DNA of 20,859 bases from a virus: IMG/VR virus record IMGVR_UViG_3300006751_000185, positions 1 through 20,859 of that record; one strand, given 5' to 3'. This document shows positions 8,633 to 15,784 of this stretch, piece after piece. The notes beneath the pieces are model-generated. The model worked only from the letters and a program-made list of their open reading frames with translations. It was not told the origin of the DNA and made no database searches. The position numbers were made by a program, and so were the translations under genes. The number at the start of each line of letters is the position of its first letter. Within the stretch, counting starts at the first letter, position 1.

Positions 8633-9487
8633 TTATCTTGGTGAAGTATTCTTAGGATGATAATTGTGAATCTTATTCAGATGAAAAAATTCCCAAGCAT
8701 AGGAAACATTATCTAAATTTTGTTGTTCAAAATCTAATTCCTCTGGCGAGGTATTTATAAATCCCGTCAGAGTAACTCGATCAGTGTCTATAAACCAATC
8801 TGGTTTAATATATGGGGCATGTAAAAAATGTGTTGGATAGGCTATCATTGTATTATACCCTATTTCCACATTTTCTTCAAGTCGATAGGGTCCATAGTCA
8901 TCAACATTAAACCAAGTAGCATCCTCCTTCAAAGAATTTTCCATCTCTTTAAAGAATTCTCCCTCTTCCATATTATCATTCCAACTATAATCTAATCGTG
9001 TTTTAAGATTATTAAAGGAATAAAATGCTGTATTAACATTATCAGACTTAGTAAGATTAATATTAAAAGCAATCTGATCAGAGACCTGAGGATCAAAATT
9101 TGTAAAATCTGTATGTGGAAAACATGAATGGATATCACTTATCTCCATATTACCATTAAAACAATTACCAAAGACTTGTCCTATTTGAACCTGACTAAGA
9201 CCCAACACAGTTGCAAGTGGTTGAACCAGTGGTTCAGCAAACCAGCTATGCATCTCTGGATGAAAATGAACACTCTTCCCTGGTCTAATTACATTATCAT
9301 CTTTATTATCACTGTTGTCCCACCAATAACCTCCTCTTAAAAACTCCCCAACCTTATCAGGTTCTTTAAAATAATCCTCTGCTACAAGAACTGGAATGTC
9401 ATTATCCTTTCCCAATAATCTAAATTCATATTTAAGATTATTAAGATGACATATGTCATCCCATATACGACTACTAGATTCTATCAT
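8633..9487 (-). CDS. DUF6445-like putative 2OG-Fe(II) oxygenase
   Basis: A 284-aa protein. FPHTDFTNF (His125, Asp127) followed about 95 residues later by MIAYPTHFLHAPYI (His223 or His220) and DTDRVTLTGFIN (Arg237) gives an HxD...H...R arrangement typical of iron/2-oxoglutarate dioxygenases. The overall sequence resembles the DUF6445 family from memory. Substrate unknown. The start overlaps the gp41 stop by ATGA, so it is translated from the replisome operon, and mazG begins 5 bases after its stop. An exact TATAAATA lies inside the gene at 8752-8759. Confidence 0.75.
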   Translation of the reverse strand: MIESSSRIWDDICHLNNLKYEFRLLGKDNDIPVLVAEDYFKEPDKVGEFLRGGYWWDNSDNKDDNVIRPGKSVHFHPEMHSWFAEPLVQPLATVLGLSQVQIGQVFGNCFNGNMEISDIHSCFPHTDFTNFDPQVSDQIAFNINLTKSDNVNTAFYSFNNLKTRLDYSWNDNMEEGEFFKEMENSLKEDATWFNVDDYGPYRLEENVEIGYNTMIAYPTHFLHAPYIKPDWFIDTDRVTLTGFINTSPEELDFEQQNLDNVSYAWEFFHLNKIHNYHPKNTSPR

Positions 9488-10869
9488 GTTAAAAACTGCA
9501 ATTTAGCAAACTTATCTTTCATTGTATTAAATTTTTCCTTTGGATCCTCTTCTCCCTGTCCACTATCTAGTAACTCCCCACCCCTGTCCTGTTCACAATC
9601 AAACAACCTCATCTTCGCTCTATCAATACCTAAAACGAATCTCTTATTCATTGTAGGGTCATTATATCTATTCTTTAACTGCTTCACCATAATCTGATTC
9701 AACCCCTCAAGTTCCTCATTACTAATAAGAGCAAACATAAGGTCAGCAGTGGCGGGAAGACCGAAAGATTCGGAAGTGTCAGTAAGGTCAATATCGCTAT
9801 TAGAAAAACCACTACGGGTAGTCTGGGTAGCCGAGAGAATCGGTAATTTGAATTCAACCGCAAGTCCTCTAAGTTCTTCTGCAATCGCTTTAACATATGA
9901 ATAAGAATTAACGGAACCTAACTTATTATATCTAGATGATGCACATATATTAAGATAATCTATGAAGAGTATATCAGGTTTAAATGATTTTTTCAATAGG
10001 AGTTCATTAAGCAATGCTTTAAAATGTCCTGAATGAGCAGATGCAGTAGGATACTCTTTAATAATTAATGTACCTTGTGTTTTCTTAGCAATATTATTAA
10101 CCTTATTCTCAAACATTACACGAGGAAGTTCACTAATATCTCTGATATTAACATCTAAGAGATTGGCGTCGATGCGTTCAGCAATCTTCTCTTCAGCCAT
10201 CTCCAGCGTGATGTACAAAACATTCTTACCCTGGAGTAAGATACTAGCAGCGCAATGACACATAAAGAGAGACTTACCCACACCAGTACCTGCAAGAGCA
10301 ATGTTGAGAGTTTTATTAGGAAGTCCACCCTTTGTGATACGGTTGAAGAATTCCAAGTCGAAAGGAATTTTGTCCTCACGCTTATGGTATGACTCGTATC
10401 TCTGTTCGTAATCTTCGAGATAATCATGTCCTATATGATTATCGAAAGAGACAGCCAAAGCATCAGACAAAATAGAAGGAATAGCATCCCTTCCTTTAGT
10501 TTCATCTTGTCCATCTGCTATTTTGATTGAGGACATCAACGCTAAGTATATAGCCCTATCTCGACACCACTTCTCAGTAGCATCATACAACCAATCATCG
10601 TTAATTTCACTATCCTCTAAAGCAGGAAGAACATCCTGGAGATCTTTATACTCCTGCTCATTGATATCATCCCTATTCTGAATCTCAATACTTAATACTT
10701 CTGTAGTAAGAAGTTTATTATACTTCGCAACAAAATCAATAATCTCTTGACAGACAATTGCTTCTGCTCTTACATCAAAGTAATCAAGATTAATAAATGG
10801 AATAACCTTTCTGGCATAGTCTTCATTATGAATAAGATTCCTAAGAATCGTCAGTTCAAGTTTTTCCAT
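9484..10869 (-). CDS. 41: Replicative DNA helicase (T4 gp41-like, DnaB family)
   Basis: A 461-aa hexameric helicase of the DnaB/RecA-fold type, close to T4 gp41 (475 aa). An N-terminal helical region (1-150) is followed by the ATPase domain, with Walker A ALAGTGVGKS (residues 191-200), EMAEEKIAERIDANL as the helix after strand 2, Walker B DILFIDYLNI (299-308) and a downstream glutamine-containing sensor LSATQTTRSG. It unwinds DNA 5'-3' on the lagging strand and partners with primase gp61. It overlaps the uvsX stop by 14 bases and the next gene by 4. Confidence 0.95.
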   Translation of the reverse strand: MEKLELTILRNLIHNEDYARKVIPFINLDYFDVRAEAIVCQEIIDFVAKYNKLLTTEVLSIEIQNRDDINEQEYKDLQDVLPALEDSEINDDWLYDATEKWCRDRAIYLALMSSIKIADGQDETKGRDAIPSILSDALAVSFDNHIGHDYLEDYEQRYESYHKREDKIPFDLEFFNRITKGGLPNKTLNIALAGTGVGKSLFMCHCAASILLQGKNVLYITLEMAEEKIAERIDANLLDVNIRDISELPRVMFENKVNNIAKKTQGTLIIKEYPTASAHSGHFKALLNELLLKKSFKPDILFIDYLNICASSRYNKLGSVNSYSYVKAIAEELRGLAVEFKLPILSATQTTRSGFSNSDIDLTDTSESFGLPATADLMFALISNEELEGLNQIMVKQLKNRYNDPTMNKRFVLGIDRAKMRLFDCEQDRGGELLDSGQGEEDPKEKFNTMKDKFAKLQFLT

Positions 10870-11863
10870 AGTTAAATTCTACTGATGCGGTTTCATCAAG
10901 AGCTTGCATTACTTCTGGTGTGAAATACTTTTCAGGGTTCTTATAGATTTCTTTGGCAAATAATTTTTTGCCATTGATCTCATAACGACCAGCAACATTC
11001 TTCCAGAGTCCTCCAATCTCTCCCAATTCTAACAAGCCATAGTACCTATCAAGACCACGGTCATCATAATAGAGACGAATTGTAACATCCTTATTCTCTT
11101 TACTTAAACGCGACTTTGCTGTCTTAGCTTTGATAAGATTTCCGACCGTTTCAGTACCATCCTTCTCTCTCTTTTTGCTGAGATATATGATAGTAGACGC
11201 CGCGTATTTGAGGCCACTGCCTCCGCCCATCTCTTTGGTGGGAACATAGGATCCGATGACATCATAGGTATGATTAGTTACTAGTAGTGGTATTTTAGCC
11301 TGCCCCAGCTTTAAAGTCAACATTCTAAATGCACCCTTAACAAGTTGTGATTTTGTCATGTCACGAACTTGTTTATCATTTAAAGCATCAGTGATTTCCT
11401 TTTCAGTAGAGAGCATACCAAGAGAGTCCAACACAAACATGCATGGTTTGCGATTTTCTTCCTTAGTCTTAAGGTATATATCTACTGCCTTAAGTGCCTT
11501 AGTCCTAAACTCTTCAATGGTCACCACATTAATGACCACAAAACGATTCATATCAATACCACGACTCTCTAATAATGATTTAGATATAGCACTCTCAGTA
11601 TCAAAATAGAGGGTATAAGCATCGGGGTGAGTATCAAGGAAGTTCTTAACCACGGCGAGAGCGAAAAAAGTTTTGCCAGTACTAGACTCTCCAGCAAGGG
11701 CAGTAATCTTATTAGAAGACACACCCCCAAATATACTGCCTGAACACAACCCATTAAAGATATAGCTTCCTGTATCAACGAATTGTTCGACATCAGTAAT
11801 TTCTGACGCCAGTTTTGTAAAGTCATCTCCAATTTCTTTTACAATATCCTTTAAAAAGTCCAT
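10856..11863 (-). CDS. uvsX: RecA-like recombinase UvsX
   Basis: A 335-aa RecA-family protein. Walker A is GESSTGKT (58-65), the Walker B strand is CMFVLDS (141-147), and residues about 190-260 contain the L1/L2-type loops (KEMGGGSGLKYAAS near 214-227). The C-terminal region is acidic/aromatic as in phage UvsX. It forms filaments on single-stranded DNA for strand exchange, recombination-dependent replication and repair. It lies 3 bases after a 38-aa gene and overlaps gp41, keeping the T4 order gp43-uvsX-gp41. Confidence 0.95.
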   Translation of the reverse strand: MDFLKDIVKEIGDDFTKLASEITDVEQFVDTGSYIFNGLCSGSIFGGVSSNKITALAGESSTGKTFFALAVVKNFLDTHPDAYTLYFDTESAISKSLLESRGIDMNRFVVINVVTIEEFRTKALKAVDIYLKTKEENRKPCMFVLDSLGMLSTEKEITDALNDKQVRDMTKSQLVKGAFRMLTLKLGQAKIPLLVTNHTYDVIGSYVPTKEMGGGSGLKYAASTIIYLSKKREKDGTETVGNLIKAKTAKSRLSKENKDVTIRLYYDDRGLDRYYGLLELGEIGGLWKNVAGRYEINGKKLFAKEIYKNPEKYFTPEVMQALDETASVEFNYGKT

Positions 11864-12150: not shown

Positions 12151-14640
12151 TTAAGTAAAAAATGATTCTAGGTTTGCAATTTTTTCAACCTTCCATCCAA
12201 TAGAATCCAGGATAATCCTAAGAGGTTCAAGGAAACTCTTAGAGAATTGTAAGTCATGATCGACATATTTGTCAATCCCTAACTCTTTTGGAAAATCTTG
12301 AATGAACGAGATTACATTTTCATGAATCTTGTTAGGTTTCTTAAGGTAGCAAAATTTAATCTTCTCACCATTACTAATTAACGAATACTTATTCGTCAAC
12401 TTATTCTCCTTGATATAGTGATTGAAGAGCAAAGCACCCCGAACATGTATCGGTGTACCCTTGATATAAATCATGCTTGCCGATTTATATTTAGTGACAT
12501 CTGAAACTGATCTAGGAAATGCAATCTCCTCAGGTGGGAGATTCCTAAATTTCTTACGACTAGTATCAATAAAATCAATAACTTCATCCTCTGTACCATT
12601 CATCATAAGTTTAAGAGCATCCTTAATCATTGCTCTACATGGTGCAGGTGTAGATGATTTAACTGCCTCTATGCCCATCATCTTCAACTTAGGTTCATTG
12701 TATTGAACTCCTTCACTGTTCCATACATTTAAAATGTATCTCTTCTTAGCAGTCCATATACCCCTCTCTGCTATATTCTCTCTTGCCATAACCATCTTCT
12801 GCTCATAGGCACTAACATACTCTGCTAATTCTTTATAGGACTGATCGATGAAGGGTTCAAATTTCTCCTGACAAATCTTATCAAGAAACGGGACAATCTT
12901 AGCAGGATCTCTTTCCTTATCTTTGTAAACAACATCGACAAGAGGACCAAGATTAAGGTAGATACTATCAGTATCACTAGCAATAACATAATCAATACCC
13001 TCCGTTTTAAGAATCTTATTTAAATAATCATTCATCTTATTCTCTATCCATCGGATACTAACCTGACCTGATAGAGTAATTGCTTCAGCATTTGCTAGTT
13101 TATAATACCTGAAGTACTGATTGCCGATAGCACCATAAGCAGAGTTAAGAGATATCTTCTTTGCCATTTGGATGTTGTTACACCTGGCAATCTCTTTGAC
13201 AAGATCAGGCGTGGGTGTCTTCTCATATTTCTTCTTGGCATCAATCATCCTCTTCTTAAAGATCACACGCTCGTTGTACATCTTCTCCATTAATTCTGGT
13301 AGAAAACCTCGTACATCCTTACGATACTGAGCACCATTAGGACATACAGCATAATCGCCATCAATTGACACTTCGCCATTTAAAATCCTCTCAACGCTTG
13401 CGCTGGGATGTCTAGTCTCCCGTAAGGTTTCTGGACTGATATTATATTGCATAATAAGATGAGGATAGAGAGAGTTGAGGTCAAAACTAACAACCCAATC
13501 ATACTTTCCTGGAATCGGTTCCTTAACATATGCTCCTGCGTATTTTTCATCCTTCTGAGAAGTGTTTTTAGGAGGAATAACGATATTCCTTTTCTTAAGA
13601 TAATTATATATGATGTTATCCCACATCCTAACCTGATAGAATACATCAACATAATTAACCTTGGCATCATATGCCATAGTCAATGCAAGTTCAATCAGTT
13701 TCATCTTGTCTTCCAGTTGGTCAACAAGTTCCACATCTATTATATTATACTCTACGAATTTTTGCCAACCATTTGTATAGAAATCTTGAAATGTATCAAA
13801 CTCAGAGTGATCCAATTTCTTTTGTCCAAGTTCTACCTCTGCAATATAATCCAACCTATAAGACTCTTGTGCCTTATAAGTAAACTTCTTATAAAGATCA
13901 AGATAATCTAACTGAGTAATGCCACCAATATCATATGCAATCTGACGACGACCTTTAATAAAGATCTCCTTAGGAGAACACAACCCCCAAGGTGACAGAC
14001 GCTTCATCAATTTAGTACCAAGAACTCTTTCAATACGCTTGGCAATAAAAGGTATATCAAACAGTTGAATGTTCCATCCAGTAACAATGTCTGGAGTATT
14101 ATCCATCCACCACTGAATAAAATCACTCAGCAAATCATGCTCATTATTAAACTGCTTGTAATAAACATTACCCTGTTTTAATTTAAAGGGTCCAACACCC
14201 CAAGTAATAATCTCCTTACTATTATAATCCTGCATTGAGATCAATAAGATCTCCTGATCTGCTGCTGCAACATCAGGGAATCCATTCTCAGAACGAGTCT
14301 CAATATCTATTGTATAAAGACTAATCTTACTAATATCAAACCTAATCTCATCCTCTGGATACTTGTCAGCAATATATTGATAGATAAATCTATCCTGACC
14401 ATACACATTAAAGTTATCTACATACTCATATTTCTTAATAAAATCTCTAGACTCTCTGACTGATCCTGGTTGAATAGATTCAACAGGTTCCCCCTCAAGA
14501 GTCCTATACTTAGACTTCCTCTTTGAGGATACAAACAAAGTAGGGGAGTATCTTTCACGGAACTGAAAAGACTCCCCATTCTCATACCCACGAACGAGGA
14601 AGTGATCCCCGATCATTTGCACATTAGTGTAAAACTTCAT
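12151..14640 (-). CDS. 43: Family B DNA polymerase (T4 gp43-like)
   Basis: An 829-aa replicative polymerase, slightly shorter than T4 gp43 (898 aa). The 3'-5' exonuclease domain has Exo I YTIDIETRS (Asp112, Glu114), Exo II DIVTGWNIQLFDIPF (184-198) and Exo III YNIID (298-302). The polymerase domain has motif A SFDLNSLYP (385-393), motif B KKISLNSAYGAIGNQ (494-508) and motif C ASDTDSIY (554-561). All catalytic acids are present. It copies phage DNA with sliding clamp gp45, loaded by gp44/62. Its ATG overlaps the stop of the upstream 95-aa gene (ATGA), and its stop is directly followed by the ATG of a 56-aa gene. Confidence 0.98.
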   Translation of the reverse strand: MKFYTNVQMIGDHFLVRGYENGESFQFRERYSPTLFVSSKRKSKYRTLEGEPVESIQPGSVRESRDFIKKYEYVDNFNVYGQDRFIYQYIADKYPEDEIRFDISKISLYTIDIETRSENGFPDVAAADQEILLISMQDYNSKEIITWGVGPFKLKQGNVYYKQFNNEHDLLSDFIQWWMDNTPDIVTGWNIQLFDIPFIAKRIERVLGTKLMKRLSPWGLCSPKEIFIKGRRQIAYDIGGITQLDYLDLYKKFTYKAQESYRLDYIAEVELGQKKLDHSEFDTFQDFYTNGWQKFVEYNIIDVELVDQLEDKMKLIELALTMAYDAKVNYVDVFYQVRMWDNIIYNYLKKRNIVIPPKNTSQKDEKYAGAYVKEPIPGKYDWVVSFDLNSLYPHLIMQYNISPETLRETRHPSASVERILNGEVSIDGDYAVCPNGAQYRKDVRGFLPELMEKMYNERVIFKKRMIDAKKKYEKTPTPDLVKEIARCNNIQMAKKISLNSAYGAIGNQYFRYYKLANAEAITLSGQVSIRWIENKMNDYLNKILKTEGIDYVIASDTDSIYLNLGPLVDVVYKDKERDPAKIVPFLDKICQEKFEPFIDQSYKELAEYVSAYEQKMVMARENIAERGIWTAKKRYILNVWNSEGVQYNEPKLKMMGIEAVKSSTPAPCRAMIKDALKLMMNGTEDEVIDFIDTSRKKFRNLPPEEIAFPRSVSDVTKYKSASMIYIKGTPIHVRGALLFNHYIKENKLTNKYSLISNGEKIKFCYLKKPNKIHENVISFIQDFPKELGIDKYVDHDLQFSKSFLEPLRIILDSIGWKVEKIANLESFFT
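12246..12275 (-). promoter_or_regulatory. Possible internal sigma70-type promoter before uvsX
   Basis: On the minus strand, TTGACA (12270-12275), an 18-base spacer and TACAAT (12246-12251), inside the 3' end of gp43. Transcription from near 12239 would serve the two tiny genes, uvsX and gp41. Sequence match is good, but the region is AT-rich coding DNA. Confidence 0.4.
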
Positions 14641-14924
14641 CCAGCAGCAATCAATTCGTTATATGCTTCCAGAATTTCTAATTCTGGATCGACTATAGTC
14701 AGTATAGCATCAGAAGAAATCAAACACTTGTACTGTTGTGTCAGATTCCTACCTGGCCACCGCTGCAACCTTTCCTTCCAAGTTGTACCCTCTTCAATTC
14801 TAAATTCAACAGGATCTGTTAATTCACAATCAGGTTCACCTAATTCAGAACTAACTTCCCGAAGCTTTGTAATCAATACTTTTGATTCGTTCTTAAGAAC
14901 GAGCAATTTAACTACTCCTTCCAT
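14637..14924 (-). CDS. Small conserved-type protein upstream of gp43 (Sm-like fold possible)
   Basis: A 95-aa protein, MEGVVKLLVLKNESKVLITK at the start. The pattern of a short beta strand (KLLVLKN), a second strand (KVLITKLREV), a DPVEF segment, a Trp and a final ILTIVDPELEILEAYNEL is shared in order with the 103-aa protein encoded just upstream, suggesting divergent tandem copies. The small beta-barrel-like layout recalls Sm/Hfq-like folds, which is inference. It is coupled by TAATG to the upstream gene and by ATGA to gp43, so it is translated with the polymerase. Confidence 0.7.
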   Translation of the reverse strand: MEGVVKLLVLKNESKVLITKLREVSSELGEPDCELTDPVEFRIEEGTTWKERLQRWPGRNLTQQYKCLISSDAILTIVDPELEILEAYNELIAAG

Positions 14925-15235
14925 TACATTCTCCTCCCATTTGTAAGTTCCTCATACATTACCCTTAAATCTGGAACTGGTTCACATACAGTAGCTACTG
15001 TATGAGGATTCACAATGTATGTATCATCCTCTGAGATATCCATCCAAGTCTTTAATCCAACTTTCTTTACCTGATTCTTAGTTGCATCATTATCCTCCAT
15101 AAGAGTCATCTCTGGAGTATAAACAATCTGAAAGGGTTTAATGATCATATACTGTTTAGTATCACCATCCAAAACCTCTTTCACATCAGCAAGAAGTTGT
15201 GTACCATCATTTAAAATTGCTACTTTAATTGACAT
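14924..15235 (-). CDS. Small conserved-type protein, first gene of the replisome operon
   Basis: A 103-aa protein starting MSIKVAILNDGTQLLADVKE, of a kind I recall as conserved in T4-like cyanophages. Beta strands near the N-terminus (KVAILNDG, QLLADVKEV), IIKPFQIVYTP in the middle, and TYIVNPHTVATVCEPVPDLR at the end match the arrangement in its downstream neighbour. It is the first gene after the promoter and terminator region at 15257-15340. Function unknown; an Sm-like RNA-binding fold is a guess. Confidence 0.75.
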   Translation of the reverse strand: MSIKVAILNDGTQLLADVKEVLDGDTKQYMIIKPFQIVYTPEMTLMEDNDATKNQVKKVGLKTWMDISEDDTYIVNPHTVATVCEPVPDLRVMYEELTNGRRM

Positions 15236-15256
15236 AGTTTTTATTTCTATTTAACT

Positions 15257-15285
15257 ATTCTACCATAAAGAAAGGGAGGTGTCTA
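15257..15285 (-). promoter_or_regulatory. Strong sigma70-type promoter for the gp43-uvsX-gp41 operon
   Basis: On the minus strand, TAGACA (15280-15285), a 17-base spacer and TAGAAT (15257-15262): 5/6 and 5/6 matches, with an extended -10 TG one base before TAGAAT. It lies in non-coding DNA, 22 bases before the first ATG of the operon (15235). The -35 box uses the loop and one arm base of the terminator hairpin. Confidence 0.75.
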
Positions 15286-15292
15286 CCTCCCT
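15273..15292 (-). terminator. Rho-independent terminator after hsp20
   Basis: On the minus strand an eight-pair perfect stem (AGGGAGGT with ACCTCCCT) and a four-base loop are followed directly by TTCTTTATGG, a T-rich run. It would end transcripts arriving from the regA-hsp20 side. Stem position 15273-15280 with 15285-15292. Confidence 0.75.
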
Positions 15293-15306
15293 CCCTGGCC
15301 TTTAGG

Positions 15307-15349: not shown

Positions 15350-15784
15350 TTAGATCCAGTCCTTACGCTGGTGATGTTCTGGTACTACCTTACCAAGTGT
15401 AACGGAAAGTAGTCCATCTTCAAAGGTGACTTCTTTGACAACAGTGTCATCAGCGATAGTCCATGCTCTAGTGAAGGATCTTTGTGCAAGTCCTCTATGT
15501 GCGTAATCAGTATCCTCTTTCTCCTCTCTCTTACCTTCTACAACAAGTTTACCATACTCTGTGTAAACTTTAATCTCATCATGTTTAAATCCTGCTAGAG
15601 CAATCTCTAGTCTGGATAATACATTACTTACATTGATGAGATTGTAAGGTGGATAATTTGTTTGTTGATGATCAAGTGGATTAAAAAAACGATCCAAATA
15701 ATCGTCCATGCCTATGCCATTCTTATTAATCTTCTCCATCAATTCTGGAAGATTGGCAGCATGAAACCTTGCTAGGTTAGTCAT
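15350..15784 (-). CDS. hsp20: Small heat-shock protein (Hsp20/alpha-crystallin family)
   Basis: A 144-aa protein. Residues 44-132 form the alpha-crystallin domain, ending in GLLSVTL, with RGLAQRSFTRAWTI (97-110) as the conserved central strand region of IbpA-like proteins. The N-terminal 40 residues are the usual variable arm. A clear I/L-x-I/L motif is not visible in the short C-terminal tail (VPEHHQRKDWI). It holds unfolding proteins in soluble form; hsp20 is a near-universal T4-like cyanophage gene. A good ribosome-binding site (AAGGAG) lies 7 bases before the ATG. It is followed by hairpins and a terminator. Confidence 0.95.
   Translation of the reverse strand: MTNLARFHAANLPELMEKINKNGIGMDDYLDRFFNPLDHQQTNYPPYNLINVSNVLSRLEIALAGFKHDEIKVYTEYGKLVVEGKREEKEDTDYAHRGLAQRSFTRAWTIADDTVVKEVTFEDGLLSVTLGKVVPEHHQRKDWI

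Follow-up and report, generated by a model that had tools for sequence, protein, structure and literature searches.

Background

Intrinsic terminators, like extended -10 promoters, belong to textbook knowledge. The bacterial intrinsic (Rho-independent) terminator is a G+C-rich hairpin with a T-rich tail at the end of a gene, and the extended -10 promoter of the sigma70 type, the type of T4-like early promoters, combines a TTGACA-like -35 box, a 16-18-nt spacer and TGN-TATAAT. The element described here has these parts and differs from an ordinary intrinsic terminator in that the loop and 3' arm of its hairpin double as the -35 box and spacer of a promoter, and from an ordinary extended -10 promoter in being embedded in the terminator of the preceding gene.

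Adjacency of a terminator and a promoter is already known. In Kayvirus 515A1 the early promoter p98 lies immediately 3' of the terminator t97, a single case, described as adjacency and not as sharing of bases (PMC7698491). Studies of RNA polymerase recycling, carried out in vitro with the E. coli enzyme, present a terminator beside a promoter as a favourable geometry (Kang 2020, PMC6978380; Harden 2020, PMC6978322), and the former names the terminator-promoter distance as a factor in re-initiation; a natural fused element is not discussed in the sections of these papers that concern recycling. Promoters and terminators of cyanomyoviruses have been predicted separately, and overlap between them is not mentioned in the sections describing those predictions (Sullivan 2010, PMC3037559). 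The manA motif was reported in potential 5' UTRs, including those of T4-like cyanophages, in the section given to it (Weinberg 2010, PMC2864571). A search of the open-access literature found no description of a systematic fused terminator-promoter.

Gene order and anatomy of the element

The window is a virus record of 20,859 bases, and the region of the element is read on its minus strand. The order of genes on that strand is regA, two genes, hsp20 (15350-15784; small heat-shock protein, phrog_432, E 7e-51), a gap of 114 nt, two small genes of phrog_431/483 type, gp43 DNA polymerase (12151-14640), uvsX (10856-11863) and gp41 (9484-10869). The first of the small genes (14924-15235; phrog_431/471/483-like, function unknown) opens the replisome operon and the second (14637-14924; phrog_483) follows it; the gap on the other side of hsp20 is 48 nt. 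The gp43 product has 60-76% identity to those of ten named cyanomyoviruses and 32% to that of T4, and hsp20 also adjoins the gp43 operon in S-SM2, S-SRM01 and S-SKS1. By sequence comparison, the virus is a T4-like cyanophage whose T4-type replication genes are nearest those of the Kyanoviridae.

The anatomy of the element can be read directly from the gap. A G+C-rich hairpin about 55-60 nt past the hsp20 stop codon, placed as an intrinsic terminator would be, has the core GGGAGGT-AGAC-ACCTCCC, in which 15292-15285 pairs with 15280-15273 around a loop at 15284-15281; with its G-U extension it spans 15271-15294 and folds at -14.7 kcal/mol (RNAfold). Of the -35 box TAGACA (15280-15285), the middle four bases make up the loop and the two outer ones pair with each other to close it; relatives have TTGACN or a near match at the same position. 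The T-rich tail TTTCTTTAT (15265-15273), partly drawn into the stem in the window where most relatives have T5-T7, doubles as promoter spacer: the 17-nt spacer (15263-15279) consists of the 3' arm of the hairpin, the T tail and TGG. The -10 box TAGAAT (15257-15262) is of the extended type, with TG at 15265-15264, one base before the box, and the hexamers stand within the 16-18 nt expected of a sigma70-type promoter; a promoter scan scores TAGACA-17-TAGAAT at 10/12, with "TG before". Folding, promoter scan and minus-strand reading thus bear out the original prediction that the terminator hairpin of hsp20 holds the -35 element of the replisome promoter in its loop. Transcription is predicted to start at about 15250 (15249-15251), and the -10 box begins 27 nt ahead of the ATG of the first operon gene, a distance that is mostly 24-32 nt in the named cyanomyoviruses.

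The copy in the window is among the weaker ones, having TAGACA instead of TTGACA and a broken T tract, and a generic terminator scan of the window did not list the hairpin, probably because the extended stem takes up the first Ts. Promoter-like sites number 23 in 6.5 kb of the window compared to 27.7 in shuffles, so that the boxes on their own are weak evidence, no better than background. The case therefore rests on comparison with relatives. The fused layout occurs only once across the 20.9-kb window when both strands are scanned.

Other features of the gap may be recorded here. The leader predicted here, some 15 nt long (within 15256-15236, minus strand), has no evident Shine-Dalgarno sequence, whereas GGAGG or AGGA occupies this place in several relatives. 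Right after hsp20 (15340-15319, minus strand) is a second hairpin, GGTAAGGGG-TCCA-CCCTTTACC, with no T tail and followed by a short palindrome; three related loci (L010, L022, L024) have similar hairpins after hsp20 with different stems, together with a GAAATGCATTTC palindrome, and the second hairpin is possibly a conserved structure of the hsp20 3' UTR. An Rfam search of the window gave no RNA at gathering score, only sub-threshold chance matches.

Conservation of the hairpin and promoter in relatives

Loci related to the window were retrieved from IMG/VR by means of hsp20, and the gap downstream was searched with a detector for -35/-10 pairs whose spacer contains a T tract and whose -35 box is spanned by a folded hairpin; TG was not among its requirements. 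Strong elements were those with a hairpin of -10 or lower in this survey and of -9 or lower in the scan of named genomes. Among 80 loci (L001-L080), the best 80 of 160 relatives, in which close relatives are over-represented, there were 76 strong elements (37 distinct), compared to 1.3 in shuffles; the gap is identical in the window, L001 and L002, and so these three are not independent. When hsp20 was clustered at 95% identity, leaving 34 clusters with enough downstream DNA, the fused element was found downstream of hsp20 in 32 of the 34, compared to 3 of 680 shuffled regions, a count that omits elements whose -35 box begins before the hsp20 stop codon and that becomes 33 of 34 when they are not omitted. 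TG precedes the -10 box in 31 of the 32 elements of relatives although the detector ignored it. The sequences of the elements vary widely, from tetraloop and pentaloop to long bulged types, and the layout is constant. At the gp43-operon border of named isolates, the element is present in S-SM2, S-SRM01, P-TIM68 and S-SKS1 (four of ten genomes) and weak in S-PM2; none was found before gp43 in P-SSM2, S-PRM1, S-SSM7, Syn9 or P-SSM7, nor in T4, among the named genomes checked.

Co-conservation is also observed within the structures. In 29 elements of the long type at this border (29 aligned of 31 regular-expression matches, L168 and L061 being left out as chance matches; the tetraloop type of the window is outside this alignment), 33 cells are altered on both sides of the stem, compared to 14.1 in shuffled alignments (0 of 500 reached the observed count) and at most 18 in slid controls; the 33 are counted over the whole structure, and the covariation concerns the outer stem. 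Most hairpins of the long type have the -35 GAC as a bulge of 3 nt, on the 3' arm of a stem that is otherwise paired. A related terminator module, marked by a TATCGTCGNCGC stretch ahead of it, was found in 37 copies (42 matches minus five without hairpin and T tract), of which 32 have a -35 box, and 31 of those 32 an in-register -10 box; none of the five copies without a -35 box has TANAAT after the hairpin. One of these (L036:4414-4528), having neither -35 nor -10, is a natural promoterless control. By these comparisons, hairpin, -35 and -10 are kept together and not by chance, as the original prediction had proposed should be looked for by aligning the same gap in related phages; and the further proposal that a single stretch of bases is both the terminator on the hsp20 side and the -35 and spacer of the replisome operon agrees with both the sequence and its co-conservation.

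The position of the manA RNA (RF01745) in two relatives of the window points to a probable start of transcription. It begins exactly 6 nt past the -10 box of the fused element in L007 (4472-4667, 128.4 bits) and in L010 (2500-2578, 68.9 bits), the place expected for the 5' end of an RNA initiated at this promoter, and in L007 it stands upstream of the leader gene of the gp43 operon. To judge from this placement, manA in these two loci is probably a leader transcribed from the fused promoter. A search of the window with RF01745 gave no match.

Recurrence across cyanomyoviruses

Ten cyanomyovirus genomes were scanned, nine of them listed as Kyanoviridae and one, S-SKS1, under Llyrvirus without that family name. 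The distance from the start of the T tract to the -10 box peaks at +8 to +13, with 25 pairs in these six positions and about 0.5 per position elsewhere; no pairs occupy the peak in shuffled genomes or in T4, and the tail in the window, beginning 11 nt ahead of the -10 box, falls within it. Terminators followed by an extended -10 box account for 37 of 1876 candidates in the ten genomes; shuffles gave 2 of 994 and T4 gave 0 of 126. When terminators are chosen by the extended -10 alone, the match to a -35 box rises at a spacer of 16-17 nt only. Among the 62 sites found genome-wide, several fall within long open reading frames, some of them probably spurious, or have a poor -35 box and may be spurious. 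The borders that carry the element in more than one genome are those of the gp43-operon leader gene (five genomes), a helicase-like gene (four; the label is a reading of the translated gene start), hli (three), a small ORF (three), cobS (three; in Syn9 with the -10 box at 130405) and epimerase-type genes (two). The same borders thus recur in different genera, and in S-SKS1 the psbA border has one too.

A pattern scan of IMG/VR collected promoters whose spacer has a T5 tract, with a control pattern in which the T tract was moved; after removal of repeats and of sites with less than 45 nt upstream, 113 distinct test sites and 109 distinct control sites remained. Among the matches listed, a hairpin lies over the -35 box at 76 of the 113 test sites and 15 of the 109 control sites. 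Where the contig encodes a protein of at least 50% identity to one of the ten genomes, 72 of 81 sites have the hairpin among the matches listed, compared to 4 of 32 on other viral contigs and to 2 of 29 for the control pattern on contigs of the same identity, again among the matches listed. Pattern sites with different hairpin sequences keep the same promoter layout. Recurrence in the virus family is thus observed directly, the fused terminator-promoter being found across the cyanomyoviruses without being universal in them; scans of the T4 genome found no fused design.

Two wider distributions, as a design general to bacteria and as one of the cyanobacterial host, were considered and rejected. 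Bacterial pattern sites have a hairpin in 16 of 118 cases among the matches listed, the strongest being mostly AT-rich palindromes of another kind, and 291 cyanobacterial genomes gave two pattern matches, both AT-rich where a G+C-rich 3' arm is expected.

Predicted function and alternatives

The element is probably a one-piece insulator and early promoter of the sigma70 type, an economical design with insulation rather than a dedicated switch. Termination and initiation during infection, and the early timing, are what the layout would predict. A polymerase arriving from regA and hsp20 would make the hairpin and its U-rich tail and stop in the T tract, and the replisome operon would thereby be shielded from upstream transcription. 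The sigma70-type RNA polymerase of the host would use the same DNA, with the -35 box in the loop, the 17-nt spacer made of 3' arm and T tract, and the extended -10 box, to initiate an mRNA at about 15250, leaving roughly 15 nt ahead of the opening gene of the gp43/uvsX/gp41 operon; the anatomy would place the end of the terminated RNA some 18 nt upstream of this start. Because both need the same DNA, a promoter-bound and a terminating polymerase would be momentarily exclusive. Cyanobacteria are not known to have Rho, which would make intrinsic terminators the main insulators.

Genome economy could by itself press terminator and promoter together to save bases, with no coupling between them, an account to which we give somewhat less than an even chance and which departs from the insulator-promoter only by denying selection for insulation of the downstream operon. 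The short gaps around hsp20 and the leaders of about 15 nt accord with it; yet more than 50 nt of the 114-nt gap, including another hairpin, lie upstream of the element, the parts are still fused in the 15 of 32 clusters in which the hairpin begins 138-318 nt from the hsp20 stop codon, and T4 does without any such element. Recycling of polymerase would add a function to the same layout: an enzyme that stays on the DNA after releasing its RNA would rebind sigma and re-initiate at the fused promoter, handing transcription from unit to unit. This is unlikely but deserves consideration; after release the active site would lie some 18 nt short of the new start, a geometry that would favour recycling. 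E. coli RNA polymerase does stay on DNA after termination and can re-initiate at nearby promoters, according to two studies (PMC6978380, PMC6978322), and in the fused element the terminator-promoter distance is zero, tandem terminator-promoter pairs at other short spacings (+16 to +60) being rarer (18, compared to 31 fused). This support comes from the E. coli enzyme in vitro, and economy by itself accounts for the layout. A relay throughout the Kyanoviridae, in which a terminating host polymerase is passed at early-gene borders to the promoter of the same hairpin and never leaves the DNA, is a little more speculative still.

The original prediction saw in the shared bases a switch between read-through from the regA side and fresh starts for gp43; if this were regulated, occupancy of the promoter would block or favour read-through from regA and hsp20, and either source could supply gp43. 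The shared bases do force exclusion, and the early promoter of Kayvirus 515A1 immediately follows a terminator that hardly impedes late transcription (PMC7698491); but no regulator site, for which there was no dedicated search, and no alternative RNA structure was found in the gap, and a switch is doubtful. The prediction also had the hairpin form in the template DNA, a notion that is set aside: intrinsic terminators work through a hairpin in the RNA, nothing points to extruded DNA, and a template hairpin is unlikely. The G.U and A.C cells in the stems number 21 and 15, a count that leaves the selected strand undecided.

That the hairpin is mainly a stabiliser of the mRNA 3' end or part of a small RNA, with termination and promoter secondary, is improbable. 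Many relatives have a conserved CTAAATA...TATCGTCGNCGC stretch before the hairpin and a conserved CTGGCAAAATCCAG tip, as such a role might suggest, but the stretch is absent upstream of the hairpin in the window, and other copies differ strongly in sequence with the same promoter layout. Chance overlap of an unrelated hairpin with a promoter-like sequence is scarcely credible and was rejected on the conservation in relatives compared to shuffles: promoter-like sites are common in the AT-rich DNA of the window, but the cluster counts, the peak of T-tract distances, the covariation, the -35 spacing signal and the module copies all contradict it.

The CTAAATA module has further occurrences. In relatives (for example L034:3838-3952 and L087:1191-1305) CTAAATA...TATCGTCGNCGC lies directly before a long-type terminator hairpin with the CTGGCAAAATCCAG tip, and similar copies are present in Syn9, S-PM2 and S-PRM1; in the window, CTAAATA followed by TATAGTCGCCGC lies upstream of hsp20 (15847-15826, minus strand). 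CTAAATA resembles a T4-type late promoter, and by this likeness the module could make an RNA of about 70 nt.

Significance

The element bears on the annotation of genomes in which promoters and terminators are predicted separately, and its natural zero-distance terminator-promoter pairs are material for testing the recycling of RNA polymerase after termination. If the relay were true, a small number of captured polymerases would be enough for a series of separate transcription units. For the insulator-promoter itself, the finding means that a virus family counted among the most common in the ocean would fit operon insulation and a promoter together in about 50 bp. It does so where genes of replication and photosynthesis adjoin their neighbours (gp43, hli, cobS and, in S-SKS1, psbA).
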